Shown here: positions 37,878 through 49,746 of the stretch, one piece after another | How the letters are laid out: every line of letters starts with the position of its first letter | How positions within the stretch are numbered: position 1 is the stretch's first letter | DNA from: Bordetella sp. FB-8 | GTDB taxonomy: Bacteria > Pseudomonadota > Gammaproteobacteria > Burkholderiales > Burkholderiaceae_B | Assembly: GCF_000382185.1 (NCBI RefSeq) | Contig: NZ_KB907784.1 | Span: 2,009,633 to 2,073,632, forward strand | Reading direction: 5' to 3' | DNA length: 64,000 nt | The notes under the pieces: model-generated | The model's input: only the letters and a program-made list of their open reading frames with translations | Told to the model about the DNA's origin: nothing | Database searches by the model: none | Position numbers and translations under genes: made by a program

Positions 37878-38366
37878 CTAGGCTTGGTCCCGATGCGACA
37901 CCACTTGCAGCTTGAGATCGCCCAGCGCCTTGAAAAGCGCGCCACGGGTGGCTTCGGGCAGGCCGTCGAACATGGCCTTGACCCATTCCTCATGGGCGCG
38001 GGCCATGCGGGCGAAGATTTTGCGGCCCTGCGGGGTGAGCTTGAGCACCGAGCTGCGGCGGTCGGACTCGACCTTGGCGCGCAAGACCAGCCCTTCTTTT
38101 TCAAGCTGGTCGGCGATGCTGGTGATGTTGCCGTTGGTCACCATCATGTGGCGCGAGAGTTCGCCCATCTTCATGCCCTTGGGCGCGCGCTGCAGCTGAG
38201 CCATCAGGTCGAAGCGGGGCAGCGTGGTGTCGAATTCGGTGCGCAGGCGGCCGCGGATGTCGCCCTCGATCAGGTTGGTACAGGTCAACAGCCTCAGCCA
38301 CAGGCGCAGGGCGTGGTGGTCGTCAGGGGCGGCGCGGCTTTCCAGATCGGGGGCGGGTGTCGTCAT
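37878..38366 (-). CDS. MarR-family regulator of the divergent aromatic-CoA operon
   Basis: A 162-residue winged-helix regulator. Helix-turn-helix and wing are visible as MGELSRHMMVTNGNITSIAD and LVLRAKVESDRRSSVLKLT with the Asp-Arg-Arg wing of MarR proteins. It is transcribed divergently from the CoA-dependent aromatic operon, with 190 bases between starts, an arrangement typical of MarR repressors released by an aromatic-CoA ligand (BadR/HcaR-like logic; inferred). Candidate operators lie in the gap. Confidence 0.92.
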   Translation of the reverse strand: MTTPAPDLESRAAPDDHHALRLWLRLLTCTNLIEGDIRGRLRTEFDTTLPRFDLMAQLQRAPKGMKMGELSRHMMVTNGNITSIADQLEKEGLVLRAKVESDRRSSVLKLTPQGRKIFARMARAHEEWVKAMFDGLPEATRGALFKALGDLKLQVVSHRDQA

Positions 38367-38405
38367 ATGGGCATCGGCTGGGGAGAAATCCCGGGTTTTT
38401 CGACA

Positions 38406-38430
38406 GGTACTTTAAATCTAAACTTGTACC
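38406..38430. promoter_or_regulatory. Candidate MarR operator 1
   Basis: An imperfect palindrome: GGTAC at 38406 and GTACC at 38426-38430 flank TTTAAATCTAAACTT. The core TTTAAATCTAAACTT recurs in altered form (TTTGAAACCTAAACTA) at 38483-38498. It lies 40 bases from the marR start, where a repressor could control both divergent promoters. Identification rests on symmetry, repetition and context only. Confidence 0.5.
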
Positions 38431-38480
38431 CTGCGCCAGTGAGGCGCAAATCTGTTGCGGGCTGGGTTTTTGGCGTATAT

Positions 38481-38500
38481 TATTTGAAACCTAAACTATT
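38481..38500. promoter_or_regulatory. Candidate MarR operator 2
   Basis: TATTTGAAACCTAAACTATT has A/T-rich half sites resembling the first site (WTTKAAAYCTAAACTW shared). It is 57 bases before the monooxygenase start and overlaps a likely promoter region. Two similar sites in one divergent gap suggest repressor dimers at each promoter. Not experimentally supported. Confidence 0.45.
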
Positions 38501-38556
38501 TTCCGGCCCTGATGTCTGGCCGCCAATCGCGGCGCATCGTCTACGGAGTGTATGCA

Positions 38557-40905
38557 ATGAAAATCGTCTGCCTGGGCGGAGGCCCTGCCGGCTTGTATTT
38601 CGGCCTGTTGATGAAGCTGCAGAATCCGGCCAACGAAGTTACCGTAATCGAACGCAACCGGCCTTACGACACCTTCGGCTGGGGCGTGGTGTTCTCCGAC
38701 GCCACCATGCAGAACCTGGCCGAGGCAGACCCGGTTTCGGCCAAGACCATCGTCGATGCCTTCAGTCATTGGGACGACATCGACATCCACTTCAAGGGCC
38801 GCACTATCCGCAGCGGCGGCCACGGCTTCATCGGCATCGGTCGCAAGCACATGCTCAACATCCTGCAGGCCCGCTGCGAGGAAGTGGGCGTCAAGCTGGT
38901 ATTCGAGAGTTTGGTCGAAGACGACCAGAAAGTCGCCATCGACTACGATGCCGACCTGGTGATCGCGTCCGACGGCCTGAACAGCGGGGTGCGCAAGCGC
39001 TACGCCGATACCTTCAGGCCCGACATCGACACGCGCCGCTGCCGTTTCGTGTGGCTGGGCACCACCAAGGTGTTCGATGCCTTCACCTTCGCCTTTGTCC
39101 AGACCGAGCACGGCTGGTTCCAGGCCCACGCCTATCGTTTCGAGGACGGCCTGTCGACCTTTATCGTCGAAACGCCCGATGAAACCTGGCAGGCCGCCGG
39201 CCTGGAACACATGAGCCAGGAAGACGGCATAGCCTACTGTGAAAAACTCTTCGCGCCCTGGCTCGATGGCCACAAGCTCATCAGCAATGCCGGGCACCTG
39301 CGCGGCTCGGCCATCTGGATTCGCTTTCCGCGCGTCATCTGCAATAGCTGGGTGCGATGGAACGAGCTGGCCACCCCGCGCGGCATGCGGCAGGTCCCCG
39401 TGGTGCTGATGGGCGACGCCGCCCATACCGCGCACTTCTCCATCGGCTCGGGCACCAAGCTGGCACTGGAAGACGCTATCGAGCTGGCCCGCTGTCTGCG
39501 GCGCGCCCCCGAGCTGCATGCCGGCCTGGCGCACTACGAAGAAGTGCGCAGCGTGGAAGTCCTGAAGATCCAGAACGCGGCGCGCAATTCCACGGAATGG
39601 TTCGAGAACGTGGCGCGCTATGCCAGCCTCGAACCCGAGCAGTTCGCCTATTCGCTGCTGACGCGGTCGCAACGCATCTCGCATGAGAACCTGCGCCTGC
39701 GCGACGCGGCCTGGCTGGAGGGCTATGAGTCCTGGATCGCCAGGCACGCCGGCCTCGATGCCCAGCAGGCCGAGCGGCCGCCGCTGCCAATGCTCACGCC
39801 CTACAAAGTGCGCGGCGTCACGCTGTCCAACCGCGTCATCATGTCGCCCATGGCCATGTATTCGTGCGTGGACGGCGTGCCAGGCGATTTTCACCTGGTG
39901 CACCTAGGCAGCCGCGCCATGGGTGGAGCAGGCTTGGTCATGGTGGAAATGACCTGCGTCTCGCCGGACGCGCGCATCACCCCGGGCTGCCCCGGACTGT
40001 GGAACGATGCGCAGGCCGAGGCCTTTGGCCGCATCGTCGAGTTCGTGCACGGCAACAGCAATGCGCGCATCGGCATACAGCTGGGCCACGCCGGCCGCAA
40101 GGGTTCCACGCGCCTGGGCTGGGAGGGCATCGACCAGCCGCTGCCCGCGGACAACTGGCCCTTGATCGCGCCCTCGGCCCTGCCGTATATCGAGGGCATC
40201 TCGCAGGTGCCCCGGGCGGTCACGCGCGCCGACATGGATCGCGTGCTCGAAGACTTTGTCGCCGCCGCCAGACGCGCCGCCGCGGCGGGGTTCGATTGGC
40301 TCGAACTGCACTGCGCCCACGGCTACCTGCTGTCGACCTTCATTTCGCCGCTGACCAACCTGCGCACCGACGAGTACGGTGGCAGCCTGGAAAACCGCCT
40401 GCGCTTTCCGCTGGAAGTCTTTCATGCAGTGCGCGCCGTCTGGCCCGAGCACCTGCCCATGTCGGTGCGCATCTCGGCCAACGACTGGGTCGAGGGCGGC
40501 ATCACGCCCGACGACGCGGTCGCGATCGCCCGCGCCTTCAAGACCGCCGGCGCCGACATGATCGATTGCTCGTCGGGCCAGGTGAGCCGCGAAGAAAAAC
40601 CCGTGTACGGCCGCATGTTCCAGACCCCGTTCGCCGACCGTGTGCGCAACGAAGCCGGCATTGCCACCATCGCCGTGGGCGCCATCTTCGAAGCCGACCA
40701 TGTCAACGGCATCATTGCTTCGGGCCGCGCCGACCTGTGCGCCCTGGCGCGTCCGCACCTTGCCGACGCGTCCTGGACGCTGCGCGAGGCCGCCCGCGTG
40801 GGTTATGCCGACGTGAACTGGCCCAAGCAGTACTTCGCCGCCAAGCGCCAGCTCGAAACCAATTTCGCGCGCGCCGCGGCCTACGCCACGCTGGACATCA
40901 AATGA
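38557..40905 (+). CDS. Salicylyl-CoA 5-hydroxylase / 2-aminobenzoyl-CoA monooxygenase-reductase
   Basis: A 782-residue bifunctional flavoenzyme. The N-terminal part (about 1-405) is an FAD monooxygenase with [24 protein letters not shown] and [18 protein letters not shown]. The C-terminal part (about 412-782) is an old-yellow-enzyme-like FMN reductase with [27 protein letters not shown] and GVGAIF-like FMN contacts. This architecture is known for 2-aminobenzoyl-CoA monooxygenase/reductase and for salicylyl-CoA 5-hydroxylase. It would hydroxylate and, with the reductase, dearomatise the CoA thioester. It is the first gene of the operon and overlaps the SDR by 4 bases. Confidence 0.9.
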
Positions 40906-41711
40906 GCGCGGCCCCGGATCAAGCCCTGGCCGGCCGCCATGCCCTGGTCACGGGCGGCGCACGCGGCATAGGCCTGGCCTGCGCCAAAGCCCTGCTGGCG
41001 CGCGGGGCCAAGGTCACGCTGCTGGGCCGGGGTCGCGAGTCTCTTCAGGCCGCCCAGGCCGAATTGATCGCCTCCGAGTCCACCGCGCCGGGCCGAGTCG
41101 GCTTCGTGTCCGCCGATATCGCAGACATGGCTTCGGTGCAGGCTGCCTTCGAACACGCCGCGCAGCAATCCGGCCCGGTCCATATCCTGGTCAACAATGC
41201 CGGACAGGCCGCCAGCCAGCCCTTCGCGCGCACAGACGCCCGGCTCTGGCGCGACATGATGGCCGTGAACCTGGACGGCACCTTCCATTGCATGCAGGCC
41301 GCGCTGCCCGACATGCTGGCCGCCGGATGGGGCCGCATCATCAACGTCGCCAGCACCGCGGGCCTGATCGGCTACGCCTACGTCAGCGCCTACGTCGCAG
41401 CCAAACATGGCGTCATCGGCCTGACCCGCTCGGTCGCCTTGGAGGTCGCCAGCAAAGGCGTCACCGTCAACGCGGTGTGCCCCGGCTACACCGAGACCGA
41501 CATTGTGCGCGACGCGGTCGCCAACATCGTGCGCAAGACCGGCATGAGCGAGGATCAGGCCCGCGCCAAGCTGGCCGAGCGCAATCCTCAAGGCAGACTG
41601 GTGCAGCCCGACGAAGTGGCCGACGCCGTCGCATGGCTTGCGCTGCCCAGCGCCGCCAGCGTCAACGGCCAAGCCATCCCGGTGGACGGCGGCGAGGTGA
41701 TGGCAGGCTGA
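40902..41711 (+). CDS. SDR-family (3-hydroxyacyl-CoA dehydrogenase-like) oxidoreductase
   Basis: A 269-residue short-chain dehydrogenase. NAD(P) motif [12 protein letters not shown], catalytic Ser in NVASTAG and Tyr-x3-Lys in YVAAKHG are all present. FabG-like, likely oxidising a 3-hydroxyacyl-CoA in the ring-degradation route. Its ATG overlaps the preceding stop (ATGA). Confidence 0.88.
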
Positions 41712-41870
41712 TTAATGCAAGGGCAATGAGATGATGCAAGTCTGCGGGGTATCGGGCCGGGACCGAGCCGACCGAATTGTTCCGCGAGGGCCACATCCGA
41801 TGTCCTGCGGACGACTCAAGAACTCAAACAGACAGCGCAGCACGAAATCGAAGAGACGACAGGAAAGACC

Positions 41871-42722
41871 ATGACAGAAACCGAACACACCATGAAGCAC
41901 CACAAGCGCGCCTTGGCGCACTACACGCCCCGCAATTTCCTGTGGCAAGTCTCCGACGACCATAAAGTCGCCACCATTACCCTGAACCGTCCCGACCGCA
42001 AGAACCCGCTCACCTTCGACTCCTATGCCGAGTTGCGCGATCTTTTCCGCTCCCTGGTCTACGCCACCGACATCAAGGTCGTCGTGATCGCAGGCGCCGG
42101 CGGCAACTTCTGTTCCGGTGGCGACGTGCACGAGATCATCGGCCCGCTCACCCAAATGAGCATGCCCGAACTGCTAGCCTTCACCCGCATGACCGGCGAC
42201 CTGGTCAAGGCCATGCGCGCATGTCCGCAGCCCATCATCGCCGCGGTCGACGGCGTATGCGCCGGCGCCGGCGCCATGATCGCACTGGCCTGCGACATGC
42301 GCCTGGGCACCCCCACGGCCAAGACCGCTTTTCTCTTCACGCGCGTCGGACTTGCGGGCGCCGACATGGGCGCTTGCGCACTGCTGCCGCGCATGATCGG
42401 GCAGGGTCGCGCCAGCGAGCTGCTCTACACCGGCCGCGCCATGTCCGCCGAGCAAGGCAGCGCCTGGGGTTTCTTCAATGCCCTGCATGCATCGGAAGAG
42501 TTGGCCGACGCCGCCTCCAAGCTGGCCGCGCAGATCGCCGCCGGCCCCACCTTTGCCCACGGTGTAACCAAGAAGCTGCTGCACCAGGAATGGAACATGG
42601 GCGTGGACGAGGCCATCGAAGCCGAAGCCCAGGCGCAGGCCCTTTGCATGGCCACCAAGGACTTCCATCGCGCCTACCAGGCCTTCGTGGCCAAGCAGAA
42701 GCCGATATTCGAGGGAGATTAG
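41871..42722 (+). CDS. Enoyl-CoA hydratase/isomerase family protein
   Basis: A 283-residue crotonase-fold protein. The oxyanion-hole segments [12 protein letters not shown] and [16 protein letters not shown], and [15 protein letters not shown], are clear. It probably hydrates or hydrolyses an unsaturated CoA ester in the pathway. GGAAAG precedes the start. The 159 bases before it hold no gene. A repeat follows it directly. Confidence 0.9.
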
Positions 42723-42723
42723 G

Positions 42724-42787
42724 ATGAGCACCCCCAGGTTCACTACGTTTACCGCCCCCATTGGGGGCTCAGCCTCCTTCGGGCGGC
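42724..42787. repeat. Extragenic repeat between hydratase and dehydrogenase genes
   Basis: It begins ATGAGCACCCCCAGGTTCAC, contains the hairpin GCCCCCATTGGGGGC and ends CTTCGGGCGGCC. It is the inverse-oriented relative of 35434-35495. It fills the space between the hydratase stop and the dehydrogenase ribosome site, inside an operon. Confidence 0.6.
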
Positions 42788-42802
42788 CGTGCGGAGGCTG
42801 AT

Positions 42803-43972
42803 ATGCGCGACGCTAGCTGGCTGGCCTGGCCTTTTTTCGACGACGCGCATCGTGCGCTGGCGCACGATTTGGACGCCTGGTGCGAAAAAAACCTGGTCCA
42901 TGTGGACCATCACGACACCGATGCCGCCTGCAAGCGCCTGGTGCGCGCTCTGGGCGAAGCCGGTTGGCTGCGCTACGCCGTGCCCGCCGGCCCGCACGGG
43001 GCCTGGGGCGGCAAATTGCCCCAGGTGGATTCGCGCTCGATCTGCATCCTGCGTGAAACCCTGGCGCGCTTTGAGGGACTGGCCGACTTCGCCTTTGCCA
43101 TGCAGGGCCTGGGCAGCGGCGCGATTTCGCTGATGGGATCGGACGAACTGCGCCTGCGCTACCTGCCGCGCGTGGCGCGCGGCCAGGCCATCGCCGCCTT
43201 TGCCTTGTCCGAGCCCGACGCCGGCTCGGACGTGGCCGCCATGGCGTGCCAAGCGCGTCTGGATGGCGACCACTATGTGCTCGACGGCCAGAAGACCTGG
43301 ATATCCAACGCCGGCATCGCCGATTTCTACTGCGTGTTTGCGCGCACCGGCGAGGCGCCCGGCGCGCGCGGCATCAGCGCCTTCGTGGTCGAGGCCGGCA
43401 CACCCGGTTTTACCGTGGCCGAGCGCTTTGACCTGATCGCACCGCACCCCCTGGGCCGCCTGCACTTTGAAAACTGCCGCATTCCCGCCGGTCAGCGCCT
43501 GGGCGATGCCGGCCAGGGATTCAAGCTGGCCATGATGACGCTGGATATTTTCCGCGCCTCGGTGGCCGCCGCCGCGCTGGGCTTCGCGCGCCGCGCGCTG
43601 GACGAAGGCCTGCGCCGGGCGCGCAGCCGCCCCCTGTTCGGCCAGACCCTGGCCGACCTGCAGTTGACGCAGGCCGCGCTGGGCGACATGGACACGGCCA
43701 TCGACGCTTCGGCGCTGTTGACTTACCGCGCCGCCTGGCAGCGCGATGTCCAGGGCACGCGGACCACGCGCGAGGCCGCCATGGCCAAGATGACCGCCAC
43801 CGAGTCGGCGCAGACGGTGATCGACCGCGCGCTGCAGATGTTCGGCGGGCTGGGCGTGGTGTCGGGCGTGCCCGTCGAGAAGCTCTACCGCGAGATCCGC
43901 GCGCTGCGCATCTACGAGGGCGCGACCGAGGTGCAAAAGCTCATCATCGCGCGGGAACTGCTCAAGACCTGA
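42803..43972 (+). CDS. Acyl-CoA dehydrogenase
   Basis: A 389-residue FAD-dependent dehydrogenase. [28 protein letters not shown] and the C-terminal FGGLGVVSG and [10 protein letters not shown] with the catalytic Glu are typical of medium/short-chain family members. Start MRDASW at 42803 has GGAGG 5 bases upstream. The likely substrate is an alicyclic acyl-CoA from the ring-reduction product (inferred from context). Confidence 0.92.
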
Positions 43973-44025
43973 ACGCAAGCGCCTGCGGCCGCGGCGCAGC
44001 GGCCACCAAGGAGGAGAATCGAGCC

Positions 44026-45672
44026 ATGGAAAGATCCGCACATATCGACACGTTTGCCCGCGACCACCTGCCGCCGCCCGAGGAATGGCCCGAGATCCTC
44101 GACAGTCCGGATACGCGCTACCCCGCGCGCTTCAATTGCGCGGTCGAGCTGGTCGATGCCATCGTGGCGCGAGGCATGGGCGAACGCGTGGCCCTGCGCT
44201 GGCGCCAGGACGGCAAACCCGCGTCCATGACCTATGACGCGCTGCGACGCCTGAGCAACCGTATCGCGCATGTGCTGACCGAGGATCTGCAGCTGGTGCC
44301 GGGCAACCGCGTGCTGCTGCGCGGCCCCAACAATGTCATGATGGCTGCGACCTGGCTTGCGGCGATCAAGGCGGGCCTGGTCACCGTGCCCACCATGCCG
44401 CTGTTGCGCGCCAAGGAACTCAAGCAGTCGATATCCAAGGCCGAGATACGCACTGTGCTGTGCGACGCGCGCCTGAAGGACGAAGCCCTGGCCTGCATGG
44501 ATCCCGGCAACGAGCACTACTGCGCCGGGCTGGAAAAAATGGGGGTGTTCAACGACGCCGCGGCCGACGCGATCGATGCCCTGGCGACGAATAAGTCCGA
44601 CGACTACACCGCCTGCGACACGGCGGCCGACGATGTCTGCCTGATCGCCTTCACCAGCGGCACCACGGGCGCGCCCAAGGGCTGCATGCACTTTCATCGC
44701 GATGTGCTCGCCATGTGCGATCTGTTCCCGCGCCATGTCATCGCGCCGCAGGCCGACGATATTTTTTGCGGCACGCCGCCCCTGGCATTCACTTTCGGCC
44801 TGGGCGGCCTGCTGTGCTTTCCGCTGCGCGTGGGCGCATCCACCGTGCTGTCCGAACGGCTCACGCCCGATTTGCTGTTGGCCGAGATCCAGGATTTTCG
44901 CGCCAACATCGTTTTCACCGCACCTACTTTCTATCGCCAGATGGCGGCGCTGGCAGGCAAATACGACATCCGCTGCCTGAACAAGAGCGTATCGGCCGGC
45001 GAGGCCCTGCCCGATGCCACGCGGCAGCTGTGGAAGCAGGCCACGGGCATCGAGATGATCGACGGCATAGGCGGCACCGAGATGATCCACGTGTTTGTCT
45101 CCAGCCCCCCCGACCAGGTACGGCAAGGCGCTATCGGCAGGGTCGTGCCCGGCTACGTCGCCCGGGTGGTCGGCGACGATATGCAGCCGGTGCCCAACGG
45201 AACGCCCGGCCGCCTGGCGGTCAAGGGACCCACAGGCTGCCGCTACCTGGCCGACGAGCGCCAGCGCAAGTTCGTGCAGCAGGGCTGGAACCTGCCCGGC
45301 GACACCTTCGTGCAGGACCAGGACGGCTATTTCTTCTACCAGGCGCGCAACGACGACATGATCATCTCGGCCGGCTACAACATCTCCGGTCCTGAGGTGG
45401 AAGACGCCCTGATGCGGCACGAGGCGGTGGCCGAGTGCGGCGTGGTGGGCAAACCCGACGACGAGCGCGGCCAGCTGGTCAAGGCCTTCGTGGTGCTCAA
45501 GCCGGGCTACGAAGCCACGCCCGAATTGGCCGCACGGCTGCAGGATTTCGTCAAGGCCACGGTCGCGCCCTACAAGTATCCGCGCGAGATCGAATTCATG
45601 GCTGCGCTGCCGCGCACCGAAACCGGCAAGTTGAAACGCTATACCTTGCGCCAAGGCGGCGTCTCGCTCTGA
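44026..45672 (+). CDS. Aromatic acid-CoA ligase (2-aminobenzoate/benzoate-CoA ligase-like)
   Basis: A 548-residue adenylate-forming enzyme. P-loop-like IAFTSGTTGAPKGCM, GGTEMIHVF, and the C-terminal catalytic Lys region ETGKLKRYTLRQ are visible. Length and sequence resemble the benzoate/2-aminobenzoate-CoA ligase group, which activates the acid as its CoA thioester with ATP. It lies in the same operon as the hydroxylase-reductase, defining the entry step. The preferred acid is inferred. AAGGAGGAGA is a strong ribosome site. Confidence 0.9.
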   Translation: MERSAHIDTFARDHLPPPEEWPEILDSPDTRYPARFNCAVELVDAIVARGMGERVALRWRQDGKPASMTYDALRRLSNRIAHVLTEDLQLVPGNRVLLRGPNNVMMAATWLAAIKAGLVTVPTMPLLRAKELKQSISKAEIRTVLCDARLKDEALACMDPGNEHYCAGLEKMGVFNDAAADAIDALATNKSDDYTACDTAADDVCLIAFTSGTTGAPKGCMHFHRDVLAMCDLFPRHVIAPQADDIFCGTPPLAFTFGLGGLLCFPLRVGASTVLSERLTPDLLLAEIQDFRANIVFTAPTFYRQMAALAGKYDIRCLNKSVSAGEALPDATRQLWKQATGIEMIDGIGGTEMIHVFVSSPPDQVRQGAIGRVVPGYVARVVGDDMQPVPNGTPGRLAVKGPTGCRYLADERQRKFVQQGWNLPGDTFVQDQDGYFFYQARNDDMIISAGYNISGPEVEDALMRHEAVAECGVVGKPDDERGQLVKAFVVLKPGYEATPELAARLQDFVKATVAPYKYPREIEFMAALPRTETGKLKRYTLRQGGVSL

Positions 45673-45685
45673 AAAGGGAGTATCC

Positions 45686-46135
45686 ATGCAGCAAGAGGCA
45701 GGCAAGCCTTACCTCAGCGAAACGCAGGTACGCTTCCGGCACTGCGATCCAGCCGGCATCGTGTTCTATCCGCGTTATTTCGAAATGATCAACGACTTTG
45801 TCGAGGCGTGGTTCGACAAGGCGCTGGAACACTCCTTTCATAGGCTGTTGACCGACATGCATCTGGGTATTCCCACGGCCTCGATCCAGTGCGACTTCAC
45901 CGCGCCCAGCCGCTGGAACGACGTGCTGCGCCAGGAGCTGACGCTGCGACGCATCGGCGGGTCTTCGATCAATTTCGATGTGCGCTTCATGGGCAGGGAC
46001 GATGCGAGTCAGCGCCTGGCCGCCAATGCCACGTTGGTCTTCGTCGACGTTCAGAGCGTTCGCCCCGCGCCCATGCCGCGCGAATTGCGCGAACGCATGG
46101 CTGCCTATCTCGTGCCTGCCGCGCCGGCGGCCTGA
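45686..46135 (+). CDS. 4-hydroxybenzoyl-CoA thioesterase-family protein
   Basis: A 149-residue hot-dog thioesterase. RFRHCDPAGIVFYPRYFEM holds the catalytic Asp of the 4HBT family. It could release CoA from dead-end thioesters and recycle the cofactor. The ATG lies 13 bases after the ligase stop, with AAAAGGGAG upstream. Confidence 0.9.
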   Translation: MQQEAGKPYLSETQVRFRHCDPAGIVFYPRYFEMINDFVEAWFDKALEHSFHRLLTDMHLGIPTASIQCDFTAPSRWNDVLRQELTLRRIGGSSINFDVRFMGRDDASQRLAANATLVFVDVQSVRPAPMPRELRERMAAYLVPAAPAA

Positions 46136-46163
46136 TTTCAATTTCCTTCAACAGGACGAAGTA

Positions 46164-46574
46164 ATGAATATTCTGCAACCCCCGGATTGGCTGCCTCCCA
46201 AGGGCTACTCCAACGGCATCATGGTCGAGATGACCGTCGGGTCCAGGCTGGTCTTGGTCGGCGGCCAGATAGGCTGGAACGGCCAGCAGCAATTCGAGAC
46301 CGACGATTTCGCCGGGCAGGTGCGCCAGACGCTGGAGAACATCGCTGCCGTGCTGAGGGAGGCGGGTGGCGGGCCGCAGCATATGGTGCGCATGACCTGG
46401 TATGTCAAGGACAAGCAGGAATACGTGGCTTCGTATCCGGCCGTCGGCAAACACTACCGCGAGGTGATGGGGCGCAATTTCCCGGCCATGACGGCGATCG
46501 AGGTGGCCGATCTGGTCGAGGATCGCGCCAAGGTCGAGATCGAAGTCACGGCAGTGATCCCGCAGGGCGGCTGA
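46164..46574 (+). CDS. RidA-family reactive imine/enamine deaminase
   Basis: A 136-residue protein of the RidA (YjgF/YER057c/UK114) family: the N-terminal PPDWLPPKGYSNGI, LVGGQIGWN, TLENIAAVLREAGG and VRMTWYV match. The C-terminal IEVTAVIP follows. RidA proteins hydrolyse enamines/imines to ketones plus ammonia. As the last gene of an operon with an aminobenzoyl-CoA-type oxygenase it may remove the amino group after ring reduction. This link is an inference, but it favours 2-aminobenzoate over salicylate as the substrate. Confidence 0.88.
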   Translation: MNILQPPDWLPPKGYSNGIMVEMTVGSRLVLVGGQIGWNGQQQFETDDFAGQVRQTLENIAAVLREAGGGPQHMVRMTWYVKDKQEYVASYPAVGKHYREVMGRNFPAMTAIEVADLVEDRAKVEIEVTAVIPQGG

Positions 46575-46578
46575 CGCC

Positions 46579-48054
46579 TCAGCTCATGGCGATTTCGCCG
46601 TCCTGGCCTATCCCGACTTTGCCGCCGGGGTAGTCTTCGCGGAATTCACGCTGCTTGTGGCCCACGCGGATGCGCACCCCGCTGTGGATCGTCTTCCTGG
46701 CAGCCACATAGGCATCGGGCTTGGGCTGCAGGGCCGCGATCAGTTCGGCCTCTTCGGCCTTCAAGGCCTCCAGGTCGGTGAAAGTCTGCTTGTAGGTCTT
46801 GCGCGCCCGGTCACCGATGCCGTCGACGTCCTTCTGCGGGTTGGCGTGCAGGAACATCACCACCTTTTCCAGTTTTGCCTGCTGCTCGGCGAGGCCCTGG
46901 CGTTTTTGCTGCAATGCGGTAAGGTGAGCATGCGCGCGCGGGTCCAGGCCCACCTCGATGTCGGTTTGCACGGCCCCTGTCGAACCGATGACGCCTGATT
47001 GCACGGACGTCATGGCGCGGACGCGTCCGCCAACGATGATGCCGTTCTGTCCGCCCGGGGGGCCGACCACCACGCTGTCTCCGGAATCGACGAAGCACTG
47101 GCGTATTTCGCGTTCGGCCGCCACCATCTGGGCCGCCTCGATCTCGGCGTGCAGGATGAAGCGCGCCTTGACCATGCCGCCGCTTACCAGGCGGGCCGCG
47201 CGGGATTGCTCCTGGCCGTCGGTGGAGACGGTCTCGGTCATGCCGATGATCCCGCCATTGACCGTGATATTGCCCCCGGCATGAACCTCGGCGGCTTCGA
47301 TGGTGCCCGAGACGAAGACGTCGCCCGTGACGCGCACCATCATGCCGGCGAGGATGTCGCCTTTGACCCGTAATGTGCCGTCGAAGTCGATATTGCCGCT
47401 GTTCAGGTCGACCGCCTCGATCTCGACCAGAGATGCGACCGACACGCCGCGCGGCATGACCTTGGGAGCGCCGGCAATCTCGGCGACCAGCAGGTCGGGA
47501 TCTTCCGCGGACGGTTTGGCGCCGGGCAGAGGCAGGGCAAAGGGCGGGTCTTCGATTTTTGCAGGGTCGAGCACCTTGCCGGTGATGTCGAAACCGGGCG
47601 TGCCCGGTACGGCTGGCGTGCGGCGCATGAGCGGTGCACCCGGCTTGACCAGGATCAGGCTACCCATATTGCGATAGTCGATGCGGGCATAGGTGCCATC
47701 GTCCTGTCCGTCGTTCTCGTCGTTCTCGTCGTCCTCGTCGTGATGCTGCCGGGGGGATTCGATCAGGCTGGTGAAGAAGGCGGACTTGCCGGCAACGGGC
47801 TTCCGTCCTGCCGCAATGCGGGTACTTAGGCCGTCGTGGCGTTCGACCGCCTGGCGCAGGGCATCGTCCAGGATGCCGGCCACCACGCCGCGGCCGGCCA
47901 GCGCGGCCCGCACCTGCGCTTCGGTGACGGCCTGGCCGCCGCGCGGCGGTTCGACGAAAAGAGTGGCGCTCATGCGGTCATCCTCGATATGCAGTTCGAA
48001 ACTGCCATCGATCAGGTCGTCCGTGGAGGAATCTACGGGCGGGACGGCGGACAT
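46579..48054 (-). CDS. DUF342/FapA-family protein (copy 1)
   Basis: A 491-residue cytoplasmic protein. N-terminal segment, then an acidic stretch (about residues 105-120: EDDENDENDGQDDG). This is followed by YARIDYRNMGSLILVKPG and the DUF342 beta-helix repeats (IDFDGTLRVKGDILAGM, VRVTGDVFVSGTIEAAEV, GGNITVNGGIIGM) and a C-terminal coiled coil (LQQKRQGLAEQQAKLEK). FapA is tied to flagella in some bacteria, but no flagellar genes are nearby. Start at 48054 has AAGGAG. It is convergent with the RidA gene. Confidence 0.88.
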   Translation of the reverse strand: MSAVPPVDSSTDDLIDGSFELHIEDDRMSATLFVEPPRGGQAVTEAQVRAALAGRGVVAGILDDALRQAVERHDGLSTRIAAGRKPVAGKSAFFTSLIESPRQHHDEDDENDENDGQDDGTYARIDYRNMGSLILVKPGAPLMRRTPAVPGTPGFDITGKVLDPAKIEDPPFALPLPGAKPSAEDPDLLVAEIAGAPKVMPRGVSVASLVEIEAVDLNSGNIDFDGTLRVKGDILAGMMVRVTGDVFVSGTIEAAEVHAGGNITVNGGIIGMTETVSTDGQEQSRAARLVSGGMVKARFILHAEIEAAQMVAAEREIRQCFVDSGDSVVVGPPGGQNGIIVGGRVRAMTSVQSGVIGSTGAVQTDIEVGLDPRAHAHLTALQQKRQGLAEQQAKLEKVVMFLHANPQKDVDGIGDRARKTYKQTFTDLEALKAEEAELIAALQPKPDAYVAARKTIHSGVRIRVGHKQREFREDYPGGKVGIGQDGEIAMS

Positions 48055-48187
48055 GCGGTCTCCTTGGGGTCGTCGGCGCATCGGCGATGCCGGCTCTTTT
48101 GAGTATTGTGCCGCCAAATCAAAGCATCGGCATAGGGGCTGATAAGGCGGATTTTTCCTCTCCGAGCCAGGTCAAATGTCAACAAAG

Positions 48188-48206
48188 AAAAAGGCCGTGA
48201 AAGCGG
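48188..48206 (-). terminator. Rho-independent terminator after DUF342 copy 2
   Basis: On the minus strand GCCGCTTTCACGGC folds into a 4-bp stem with a 6-base loop, followed by CTTTTTCTTT. It lies 29 bases after the stop of the upstream DUF342 gene (48235) and separates it from the second copy, so the two genes likely have separate promoters. Confidence 0.55.
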
Positions 48207-48234
48207 CGCAGGGTTGCGCGCGAGATTCCGGACA

Positions 48235-49746
48235 TCAATTGACTGCGATCTCTCCGTTGGCCCCCTGCCGCAGCTTGCCGCCCGGATAGTCTTCCCGGAA
48301 TTCGCGGGCCTTATGGCCTATGCGCGCATTGACGCCGCTGTAGATGCGCTTTTTCACGGCGACATAGGCTTCGGCACGGGGCACCAGAGCCCGGATCAGT
48401 TCCGCTTCCTGCGCGGTGAGCGCGCTCATCTCGGCCAGCGTCTGCCTGAGGGTCTCGCGCGCACGCGCCCCGACATTGTTGACGTCCTTCTGCGGATTGG
48501 CCTGCAGGAACAGAACCAGCTTTTCCAGCTTGGCCTGCTGCTCGTTCAGTTCTTTGCGCTTGCGTTGCAGGACCTGGGCCCGGGCGTCGGTGCGCGGATT
48601 CAGGCCTACCTGAACTTCGGTGCGCACGGCCGACATCGAGCCCAGTACGCCCGAGTGCACCGATATCGTGGCGCGGATGCGTCCACCGACGATAGCGCCT
48701 TTTTGCGAACCTGGCGGGCCGACCACCACGCAGTCGCCGGCGTCAATGAAGCTCTGGCGAATTTCCCGTTCGGCCGCCACAATTTTGCGCGCATCGATAT
48801 GGGCGTGGGAAATGAAGCGCGCCTTGACCGAGCCGTCGCAGACCAGGTGGGCCGCGCGGGACTGCGCCTGGCCGTCGTTGGCGACAGTGTCGGCCATGCC
48901 CACGATGCCGCCGTTGACCGTGATGTCGCCGCCCGCATGAACGTCGGCGGCCTCGATAGTGCCGGCGACGGCGATATCGCCCGTTACGTGGACCCTCATG
49001 CCCGCGACGATATCGCCCCTGACCTTCAGCGAGCCGTCGAAATCGATGTTGCCGGTATCGAGGTTGACCGCATCGACCTCGACCAGGGCGAACACCGATA
49101 CTCCGTGCTCCATGACCTTGGGGGCGCCCGAGATAGCGGCGATCAGCAAGTTCGCGTCGTCCGGGCAGAGCATGACGCCCGCGAGGTGGTCGGCGAAGGG
49201 CTGGTCCTGTATTGGCGGCAGCTCGATGACCTTGCCGGTTATATCGAAGCCGGGAATGCTGGGCACGGCCGGTGTGCGACGCATGAGCGGGATGCCGGGC
49301 GTGACCAATATCAGGTTGCCCAGGTCGCGATAGTCGATGCGCACGTGGGTGTCCTCGTCTTCGTCCTCCACGGCTTCACCAATTTGATCGAGCGGGGATT
49401 CGATCAAATTGGTGAAGGCGGCGGGATGGCCGGGCGTGGGCTCCAAGCCCCTGGCTATGCATACATAAGAGCCGATACCCAGCTCCGCGGTCTGGCGTAG
49501 CGCATCGTCCAGAATGCCGGCCACCAGGCCTCGGGCGGTCATCTCTGCGCGTATCTGCTCTTCGGAAACCGCTGCGCCGCCGTTCAGAGGCGGTTCGATG
49601 GAAACCGATACGGCCATGTGGTCGTTGTCGATATACAGATAGAAGCGGCCATCGAGCGGGACGTCCGACGGCGTATCTGCGGGCAGGCCTTCGAGGCTAT
49701 CGATAGGCAGGCTGTCGGACGGATCCCTAGGCAGATCTGCGGGCAT
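48235..49746 (-). CDS. DUF342/FapA-family protein (copy 2)
   Basis: A 503-residue paralogue of the neighbour, with the same layout: N-terminal domain (about 1-100), acidic spacer (VEDEDEDTHVRIDY), beta-helix repeat core (FDGSLKVRGDIVAGM, VHVTGDIAVAGTIEAADV, GGDITVNGGIVGM) and a Lys/Glu-rich coiled coil. The N-terminus holds a Leu/Pro/Asp-rich stretch of short repeats (LPRDPSDSLPID, LPADTPSDVPLD). It was probably made by tandem duplication. GGAGGATTC precedes the ATG. The function is unknown. Confidence 0.88.
   Translation of the reverse strand: MPADLPRDPSDSLPIDSLEGLPADTPSDVPLDGRFYLYIDNDHMAVSVSIEPPLNGGAAVSEEQIRAEMTARGLVAGILDDALRQTAELGIGSYVCIARGLEPTPGHPAAFTNLIESPLDQIGEAVEDEDEDTHVRIDYRDLGNLILVTPGIPLMRRTPAVPSIPGFDITGKVIELPPIQDQPFADHLAGVMLCPDDANLLIAAISGAPKVMEHGVSVFALVEVDAVNLDTGNIDFDGSLKVRGDIVAGMRVHVTGDIAVAGTIEAADVHAGGDITVNGGIVGMADTVANDGQAQSRAAHLVCDGSVKARFISHAHIDARKIVAAEREIRQSFIDAGDCVVVGPPGSQKGAIVGGRIRATISVHSGVLGSMSAVRTEVQVGLNPRTDARAQVLQRKRKELNEQQAKLEKLVLFLQANPQKDVNNVGARARETLRQTLAEMSALTAQEAELIRALVPRAEAYVAVKKRIYSGVNARIGHKAREFREDYPGGKLRQGANGEIAVN

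Follow-up and report, generated by a model that had tools for sequence, protein, structure and literature searches.

A probable operon for aerobic 2-aminobenzoate breakdown through CoA thioesters in Bordetella sp. FB-8, with a Met-type Rid protein as candidate for the deamination step

Introduction

The locus discussed here raises the question of which aromatic acid is broken down by a compact set of CoA-thioester genes in Bordetella sp. FB-8, and which of the encoded proteins would remove the nitrogen if that acid is 2-aminobenzoate. The genes lie at 37878-46574 of a stretch of 64,000 nucleotides that was analysed as a whole and is termed the window. By its gene content the operon is of an already known type, the 2-aminobenzoyl-CoA (abm) clusters of Azoarcus/Aromatoleum evansii, whose aerobic 2-aminobenzoate clusters were reportedly described by Schuhle et al. 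in 2001. In the literature excerpts consulted on this operon type, no enzyme is assigned to nitrogen removal after ring reduction. Taken together, the evidence indicates that the locus is probably a MarR-controlled operon for aerobic 2-aminobenzoate breakdown by the 2-aminobenzoyl-CoA route, including deamination by a Rid-family protein and ring opening.

Organization of the operon

The operon comprises seven closely spaced genes and a MarR gene transcribed away from them, all recovered by profile matches at the positions listed below, and the gene set named in an earlier sequence-only reading of this DNA (ligase, fusion enzyme, SDR, crotonase, acyl-CoA dehydrogenase, thioesterase, RidA-type protein and divergent MarR) proved to be entirely present.

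37878..38366, minus strand: MarR-family regulator, divergent (PF01047, 44.2 bits, cut-off 24.6)
38480..38499, no strand: likely MarR operator, an imperfect palindrome TTATTTGAAACCTAAACTAT whose idealised version is ATAGTTTAAGCTTAAACTAT (comparison of relatives)
38557..40905, plus strand: fusion of FAD monooxygenase and Old Yellow Enzyme, 2-aminobenzoyl-CoA monooxygenase/reductase-type (NF006101, PF00724, PF01494)
40902..41711, plus strand: short-chain dehydrogenase, SDR (PF00106, 206.6 bits)
41871 or 41892..42722, plus strand: crotonase-family protein, ECH (NF006107, 503.8 bits)
42803..43972, plus strand: acyl-CoA dehydrogenase, ACAD (PF00441, 151 bits; PF02770, 83.2 bits)
44026..45672, plus strand: AMP-forming aryl-CoA ligase, benzoate-CoA ligase-like (PF00501, 225.5 bits)
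45686..46135, plus strand: hotdog-fold (4HBT) thioesterase (PF13279, 50.7 bits)
46164..46574, plus strand: Rid-family protein, Met-type (PF01042, 75.7 bits)

The best Pfam E-values of the operon proteins range from 1.8e-11 to 1.3e-66, far beyond chance, with the exception of the N-terminal half of the fusion enzyme, which matches FAD_binding_3 at only 3e-8. The best start of the fusion gene, which overlaps the SDR gene by 4 bp, is 38557, preceded by GGAG and preferred over 38512. The run stops at 46574, since the following gene (46579-48117) is encoded on the opposite strand.

Proposed pathway

Activation of 2-aminobenzoate to 2-aminobenzoyl-CoA would be performed by the ligase, and the fusion enzyme would then hydroxylate and reduce the ring to give 2-amino-5-oxocyclohex-1-ene-carbonyl-CoA; these first two reactions have already been published for relatives. 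The Met-type Rid protein may subsequently hydrolyse this thioester-conjugated enamine to 2,5-dioxocyclohexane-carbonyl-CoA and ammonia, after which the crotonase would cleave the ring adjacent to the thioester, with 4-oxopimeloyl-CoA as the predicted product, and the final steps would fall to the acyl-CoA dehydrogenase, the SDR and general beta-oxidation enzymes. The thioesterase may release CoA from stalled thioesters, while the MarR protein would probably bind at 38480-38499 and be released by an acid or CoA thioester of the pathway.

Metabolite evidence from Arthrobacter sp. Rue61a is consistent with such a sequence, as a C7H8O4 CoA ester was found there only in anthranilate-grown cells, which according to its authors might be cyclohexanedione-carboxyl-CoA (PMC3534580). 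The enamine product is reported to be unstable below pH 5 (PMC3534580), which suggests that its hydrolysis needs help at neutral pH. For the ring-opening step, an Asp of the crotonase aligns with the Asp of PaaG (4fzw_C); the protein is a candidate ring-opening hydrolase or isomerase.

The ligase scores 354.9 bits against TIGR02262, below the cut-off of 375.25; despite this, it is assigned to the benzoate-CoA ligase class by its nearest relatives, the closest solved ligases in sequence being the benzoate-CoA ligases 4eat, 4rlf and 4rm3 and the anthranilate-CoA ligase 4wv3. Its identity to the ligases of five Aromatoleum-genus loci (L150-L154) is only 55-57%, and characterised aryl-CoA ligases often accept several substrates (PMC8388817). 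These points and the TIGR02262 score would favour a substituted or related amino acid (e.g. N-methyl-, hydroxy- or chloro-2-aminobenzoate) as the true substrate of the same chemistry, a reading that is very improbable, as no extra ring-modifying gene was found inside the operon by Pfam matches and kynureninase, encoded both in this genome and beside clusters of relatives, points to plain 2-aminobenzoate. The kynureninase match of the own genome (336.2 bits, cut-off 246.4) supports 2-aminobenzoate, whereas tryptophan 2,3-dioxygenase (TIGR03036) was not found in this genome, which counts against it.

2-Aminobenzoate or salicylate as the substrate

The fusion enzyme, of which the genome holds one full-length copy, matches NF006101 with 1407.6 bits (cut-off 1078), a family named by NCBIfam as salicylyl-CoA 5-hydroxylase/oxidoreductase. 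This name raises the alternative of a salicylate operon, in which the ligase would form salicylyl-CoA, the fusion enzyme gentisyl-CoA and the thioesterase gentisate, with a gentisate-dioxygenase-like cluster elsewhere completing the route and Rid as a passenger. Such a cluster does exist in the own genome at 2,859,501-2,863,431, where a gentisate-dioxygenase homologue (77% identical to that of L004; 323.7 bits against TIGR02272, below the cut-off of 442.1) is accompanied by FAH, nitrilase-like and GntR genes. Moreover, the fusion proteins of two gentisate-type loci, L004 and L017, are 76% identical to that of the window, and those of L150-L154 are 65-66% identical; L004 and L017 adjoin gentisate-dioxygenase-like genes and share the clade of the window protein. 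The substrate can therefore not be read from the fusion sequence by itself, and an assignment from its phylogeny was dropped. The fusion tree and the Rid tree both carry long-branch warnings, including the join of L010 with Novosphingobium rows. Among the best 60 of 142 structure matches none covers the whole fusion enzyme, all corresponding to one half or the other.

Neither a gentisate-dioxygenase nor an FAH match was found near the window operon, and the gentisate route is not known to require an acyl-CoA dehydrogenase, crotonase or deaminase. All six loci with gentisate-dioxygenase-like genes (L004, L017, L011 and L193-L195, of two origins on the tree) lack, within the stretches examined, ECH, ACAD and Met-type Rid, the three of which are present in the window operon; the label is given by homology, the L004 protein scoring 330.4 bits against TIGR02272 and thus also below the cut-off. 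In the Novosphingobium loci L011, L194 and L195 an unrelated Rid gene (33-34% identity) lies 5-6 kb away, on account of which L011 was counted as a gentisate-dioxygenase locus with Rid; the one of these three proteins that was checked, that of L011, has Asn at the Arg105 position.

Phenotypes of other bacteria point in both directions. Cupriavidus metallidurans CH34, for which abm genes are reported, does not grow on anthranilate and grows well on salicylate (PMC8879955), and an sdgC-annotated gene of Massilia M16 is induced by salicylate (PMC13215587), both in favour of salicylate; the four Massilia-named loci of the present set are of the Rid type. Alcaligenes aquatilis, which bears an sdgC-annotated gene, grows with anthranilate but not with salicylate (PMC6460240); however, its growth need not run via the CoA route, because anthranilate dioxygenase genes are also present (PMC6460240). 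Since the operon is without gentisate genes and the gentisate-type clusters are without Met-type Rid and beta-oxidation genes, salicylate was set aside as first choice and ranked second, as an improbable substrate.

Linkage of the Rid gene to the fusion gene

In the sequence-only reading it was the Rid gene that pointed to 2-aminobenzoate. The 2-aminobenzoate-CoA reading with a Rid step is the best supported, although the claim of novelty and the name RidA are not. When every Rid-family hit at E <= 1e-5 (eight Rid queries) between -12 and +14 kb is counted, Rid occurs near the fusion gene in 85 of the 90 beta-oxidation-type loci, namely 70/72 with full flanks and 15/18 that are truncated, with flanks of <9 kb on the downstream or <3.5 kb on the upstream side. 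The full-flank exceptions are L012 (Streptomyces) and L096 (Rubrivivax). All seven loci with kynureninase or tryptophan dioxygenase genes (tryptophan-to-anthranilate genes) nearby contain Rid, which is also retained in five loci, of two origins, where cupin and FAH genes replace ECH and ACAD, and which accompanies the fusion enzyme in several phyla.

The seven-gene order of the window recurs in Achromobacter (L018, L019), Pandoraea (L023, L025) and Cupriavidus (L022), with no MarR match near the run in any of these five. Four Aromatoleum-genus genomes display, in five loci (L150-L154; one genome twice), the order ABM-SDR-ECH-ACAD-Rid-MarR-ligase-SBP. The Rid step had been presented as a new detail; instead, a Rid gene is regular in such clusters, those of Aromatoleum included. 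In the 2001 A. evansii paper it is said to be given as a translation inhibitor.

As for the sampling, 26 of 200 genomes of the order, the own included, have a fusion gene at E <= 1e-200, and the Aromatoleum genus gave 12 full-length places, 8 of them extended (G001 being L071); no SDR or ECH match was seen beside the fusion gene in the 5.3-kb loci G002, G003 and G010 of this genus. For L030, L060, L075 and L076, longer pieces of their contigs were used instead. L028, the second and different fusion gene of the L165 genome, truncated at 1.7 kb upstream and without a Rid match nearby, was left out of the Rid counts and the fusion tree; with it, the total would rise to 129 through one further truncated locus of the "other" class that has no Rid.

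The Met-type Rid protein

By its PF01042 match and by equivalents of Tyr17 and Glu120, both kept in the alignments, the window protein is a member of the Rid superfamily. It is, however, no ordinary RidA, as the sequence-only reading had called it, this identity being ruled out by Met at the position of the catalytic Arg105 and by a score of 56.5 bits against TIGR00004, the Rid detoxifying-hydrolase model, with a cut-off of 106.25. Among Rid proteins near fusion genes, Met occupies this position in 98/102 (96 by pattern, plus L069 and L177 as shown by alignment) and Arg in 0/102. An alignment of 71 rows, from which the remaining rows with long open frames were omitted, gives Met in 67, Glu in all 71 and Tyr/Phe in 70, the Tyr column being picked by its position in the window protein, as the reference fragment begins after Tyr; a separate alignment gives Met in 66/69. 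The three Rid paralogs of the own genome have Arg there, and Met appears in one of 13 other paralogs (L145), a count that omits the Met-type lineage, L106 (the protein of the window itself) and L131, both of which were wrongly placed in the alignment, and the unplaced L107. In the Rid tree the Met-type proteins are separate from the Arg-type ones.

In RidA, Arg105 is essential for imine hydrolysis and makes hydrogen bonds to substrate carboxylates, and Rid subfamilies without it "presumably" have other functions (PMC4433059). The loss of this essential residue, the presumed other functions of Arg-less subfamilies and the few clusters with no Rid nearby would fit a merely protective or non-catalytic accessory Rid, deamination being spontaneous or due to another enzyme. 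Given that the pathway is right, this variant, which overlaps the preferred explanation, is unlikely: one Rid lineage is very regularly linked to the fusion gene even where the downstream genes differ, the Glu and Tyr/Phe positions are conserved in the aligned rows, and the carboxylate contacted by the RidA Arg (PMC4433059) is not free on the proposed substrate. The exchange of Arg105 for Met is compatible with a CoA-thioester substrate having no free carboxylate, and the Rid protein is a likely candidate for the nitrogen-removal step. Whether the Met-type proteins form a separate functional subfamily of dedicated deaminases for CoA-thioester-borne enamines, with the carboxylate-binding Arg exchanged for Met because CoA masks the carboxyl group of the substrate, is an evenly balanced proposal.

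The regulator and its putative operator

The MarR protein, whose domain match lies above the PF01047 cut-off, reaches no cut-off of the NCBIfam equivalog models. A divergent MarR gene just upstream of the fusion gene is found in 7/128 loci, and any MarR gene nearby in 76/128. Visual inspection revealed the palindrome at 38480-38499 ahead of the fusion gene in seven of the displayed relatives as well. Its core pattern, defined after the sequences had been inspected, occurs once in the window and not in shuffles; the exact pattern is found once in the own genome and in 16/213 loci, among them 13 distinct other loci in which it precedes the fusion gene by about 45-170 bp. An inverted-repeat search of 38367-38556 returned only an unrelated GC-rich palindrome, and a sigma-70 promoter scan gave 0 sites. 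The conserved element is likely to be the MarR operator.

Implications and comparison with known systems

The comparison offers a concrete deamination candidate together with an easily recognised sequence marker, the Met in place of Arg105. If the proposal holds, NF006101 matches that adjoin a Met-type Rid gene would be anthranilate rather than salicylate enzymes, and genome-based predictions of the breakdown of salicylate, a plant signal, would be affected.

The closest likeness is to the A. evansii-type abm clusters, which, as seen in L150-L154, share the fusion enzyme, the ligase, three beta-oxidation-type genes, MarR and Rid, and of which A. evansii itself has two very similar copies (PMC8388817). 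In contrast with L150-L154, the window operon has an additional hotdog thioesterase, a divergent MarR gene instead of one inside the run, and no match to the ABC substrate-binding protein (SBP) gene near the fusion gene; the SBP gene is variable rather than defining, since other clusters of the set, e.g. L169, L170, L174 and L180, also lack a match. The anthranilate genes of Arthrobacter sp. Rue61a share the ligase and the fusion enzyme (PMC3534580). In Rhodococcus erythropolis BG43 a Rid gene likewise adjoins ligase and fusion genes and lies near a 2-heptyl-3-hydroxy-4-quinolone dioxygenase gene, but cupin, FAH and thioesterase genes stand in place of SDR, ECH and ACAD. The salicylyl-CoA 5-hydroxylase (sdgC) route shares the NCBIfam fusion family name, whereas gentisate-type clusters combine gentisate-dioxygenase-like and FAH genes with the absence of Met-type Rid. 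Finally, the Rid protein of the operon shares the PF01042 superfamily with RidA and 2-aminomuconate deaminase, and within this superfamily enamine hydrolysis has a precedent in the catabolism of aromatic amines (PMC6449761). The operon protein differs from RidA in bearing Met for Arg105 and in branching separately from Arg-type members in the Rid tree.

Organization of the operon and its candidate operator

The run of genes, for which the sequence-only reading had proposed a role in the CoA-thioester degradation of an aminobenzoate-like acid, was confirmed by sequence and profile matches as present and exact at its place, and is headed by a divergent regulator.

37878-38366, minus strand: MarR gene, facing the seven plus-strand genes

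These seven genes are arranged in the order fusion (the FAD monooxygenase/Old Yellow Enzyme (OYE) flavoenzyme), SDR, crotonase, acyl-CoA dehydrogenase, AMP-forming ligase, hotdog thioesterase and Rid, and neighbours overlap or lie at most about 180 bases apart. Position 38557, preceded by GGAG, is the best candidate for the fusion start codon, and the run is ended by a convergent gene at 46579. Only one full-length fusion gene is harbored by the host genome of 4.08 Mb. At 46579-49746 on the minus strand, two adjacent genes encoding proteins of 512 and 503 aa appear alike by eye, perhaps representing a tandem duplication.

An AT-rich palindrome (ideal form ATAGTTTAAGCTTAAACTAT; window copy 38480-38499) is located upstream of the fusion gene and is read as a putative MarR site. 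It is common to seven of the relatives compared (loci L018, L019, L020, L044, L168, L169 and L192), and was not clearly seen in the upstream regions of L007, L174 and L081. The core pattern, drawn up after the sequences had been viewed, occurs once in the window versus none in 100 shuffles, and the genome contains one exact copy together with three one-mismatch sites elsewhere, versus one for the reversed control. Exact matches were found in 16 of 213 loci, two being copies of the window's own site; in 13 of the 16 the site precedes the fusion gene by about 45-170 bp, and the remaining one, in L029, lies by the 5' end of a ligase frame. Several loci with the palindrome displayed no MarR match nearby.

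A Rid protein with methionine in place of arginine

The last gene had been named RidA, an identity that could not be upheld, since the residue aligned to the essential arginine is methionine (Met-type Rid). According to the accessible part of one study, RidA and Rid1-3 retain this arginine, a residue that binds the substrate carboxylate and is indispensable to the hydrolysis of imines, while Rid4-7 are devoid of it (PMC4433059). In the 102 Rid proteins encoded close to a fusion gene, the Arg105 position is occupied by Met in 98 and by Arg in none, the exceptions being Ile (L090), Leu (L015, a haloarchaeon), Asn (L011, an unrelated Rid) and Ser (L191). Glu120 is kept throughout a 71-row alignment (71/71), and the Tyr17 position is Tyr or Phe in 70 of the 71. 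Loss of the arginine would be expected, because a CoA thioester offers no free carboxylate. Three paralogs in the same genome (L103, L104, L105) retain Arg, and a fourth match (L107) had no placement in the alignment.

In the Rid tree of 88 proteins, built on few columns and with long branches, one supported set comprises 65 of 67 Met-type cluster proteins, four Met-type homologues and L090, with no Arg-type protein; the actinobacterial Met-type Rids of L013 and L049 fall outside it. The Met mark is not exclusive to fusion clusters, because none of the four homologues (L130, L135, L136, L138) has a fusion gene as its neighbour; that of L136 adjoins a ligase and a MarR gene. In the A. buckelii genome (L157:10257-12746), a gene for a flavoenzyme of OYE plus pyridine-nucleotide-disulphide type is succeeded by a Met-type Rid gene, with cyclase and AraC genes near and a solitary fusion gene about 36 kb away, which is perhaps another use of this lineage.

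Linkage of Rid to the fusion enzyme

The survey covered 128 fusion-gene loci, the window included, derived from plasmids (14), genome contigs (75 of 80, with five other stretches replacing the remaining five), the genus Aromatoleum (eight) and a 200-genome sample of the order (25); L028, one of the five replaced, was left out of the counts though a locus in its own right. Where both a crotonase and an acyl-CoA dehydrogenase homologue were nearby, 70 of 72 full-flank and 15 of 18 truncated loci had Rid; it was present in 2/4 with either homologue alone, in all five cupin/FAH-type loci, and in 7/12 full-flank and 3/14 truncated loci of other types. It was found in neither of the gentisate-dioxygenase-like loci L004 and L017, with only an unrelated Rid in L011, and the Met-type Rid was absent from three further such loci (L193-L195). 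At L007, L030, L060, L075 and L076, Rid lay at or just beyond the stretch end and was found on extension; for L093, L071 and L097, Met-type genes occur elsewhere in the same genomes. Rid is present in all seven loci that have a kynureninase or tryptophan dioxygenase gene in the vicinity.

In the fusion tree (131 proteins, with a long-branch warning for L010 joined with Novosphingobium rows), the gentisate and cupin types each require two origins. Both gentisate-type groups lack the Met-type Rid and both cupin-type groups retain it, so Rid tracks the fusion enzyme, not the ring-opening genes, and accompanies it wherever a substrate with an amino group is likely. The label "gentisate" is given by homology, the L004 protein reaching 330.4 bits where the TIGR02272 cut-off is 442.1. 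This linkage, a correlation among non-independent loci, is the pattern expected of a step on the amino product of the fusion enzyme.

2-Aminobenzoate or salicylate as substrate

Salicylate, degraded via gentisate, is the main rival to 2-aminobenzoate. The gentisate-type fusion proteins of L004 and L017 share 76% identity with that of the window and belong to its clade, and the own genome carries gentisate-dioxygenase-like, FAH, nitrilase-like and GntR genes (G000:C1:2,859,501-2,863,431; L201:5502-9432). This set, located at 2.86 Mb, resembles the neighbours of the Caballeronia L004 fusion gene. That tryptophan 2,3-dioxygenase had no match in the own genome counts against 2-aminobenzoate, though kynureninase is present there. 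In the sections available, C. metallidurans CH34, with reported abm (2-aminobenzoyl-CoA) genes, grew on salicylate and not on anthranilate (PMC8879955), and Massilia M16 responded to salicylate with induction of a gene named sdgC (PMC13215587). Indolepyruvate oxidoreductase genes, IorA- and/or IorB-like, recur near the fusion genes of L004, L006, L049, L064, L085 and L090; at the gentisate-type L004 no CoA ligase match is nearby.

The favoured 2-aminobenzoate route would involve deamination and ring opening. An Asp of the window crotonase aligns with the PaaG Asp (4fzw_C), which we take to be catalytic, ordinary hydratases having Glu in this region instead; because of this alignment, the crotonase may be the ring opener rather than a plain hydratase. 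In Arthrobacter Rue61a grown on anthranilate, the text at hand describes a C7H8O4 CoA ester that might be cyclohexanedione-carboxyl-CoA, and an enamine product unstable below pH 5 and not detected in that work (PMC3534580); therefore, deamination seems to occur in cells. 2-Aminomuconate deaminase, a Rid-family enzyme in the excerpt available, provides a precedent (PMC6449761).

Comparison with the Aromatoleum clusters

The fusion protein matches NCBIfam NF006101, "salicylyl-CoA 5-hydroxylase/oxidoreductase", at 1407.6 bits, while some of the 120 homologues listed bear the JGI name "anthraniloyl-CoA monooxygenase"; the closest among the matches listed is from Bordetella sp. (89% identical). A deep, divergent second clade (L181-L191, 46-54% identity) has a Met-type Rid nearby in 7/11 and any Rid in 8/11, and only L181 has crotonase and acyl-CoA dehydrogenase homologues of the window's type.

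The Schuhle 2001 abstract reportedly gives eight genes per cluster, including a MarR-like regulator and a "putative translation inhibitor", the latter term being an old name of Rid proteins. Two clusters very similar to each other are described for A. evansii in the accessible text (PMC8388817). The order fusion-SDR-crotonase-acyl-CoA dehydrogenase-Rid-MarR-ligase-SBP (ABC substrate-binding protein) was found in L150-L154, from four genomes of Aromatoleum buckelii's genus, one of which (G006) holds two such loci (L150 and L151). Variant clusters occur in two more genomes of the genus (L155, L156), and a solitary fusion gene without SDR or crotonase beside it in five (G001-G004 and G010; L071/L098, L112-L115, L167). 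One TAG was reported in the fusion match of L112 and of L113, which may be just the end stop, because the open frames are 876 and 840 aa long.

The Rid gene, which would have been a new detail according to the sequence-only reading, is thus already part of the L150-L154 clusters; the operon is of a known kind and the presence of Rid is not new. A literature search, with subscription papers mostly outside its reach, disclosed in the texts available no Rid protein assigned to the 2-aminobenzoyl-CoA/anthraniloyl-CoA pathway, and the Met-type Rid as its deaminase is a testable proposal. The window operon is built from the same parts as L150-L154, bar three differences: it lacks the SBP, has a thioesterase in addition, and carries its MarR gene in divergent orientation.
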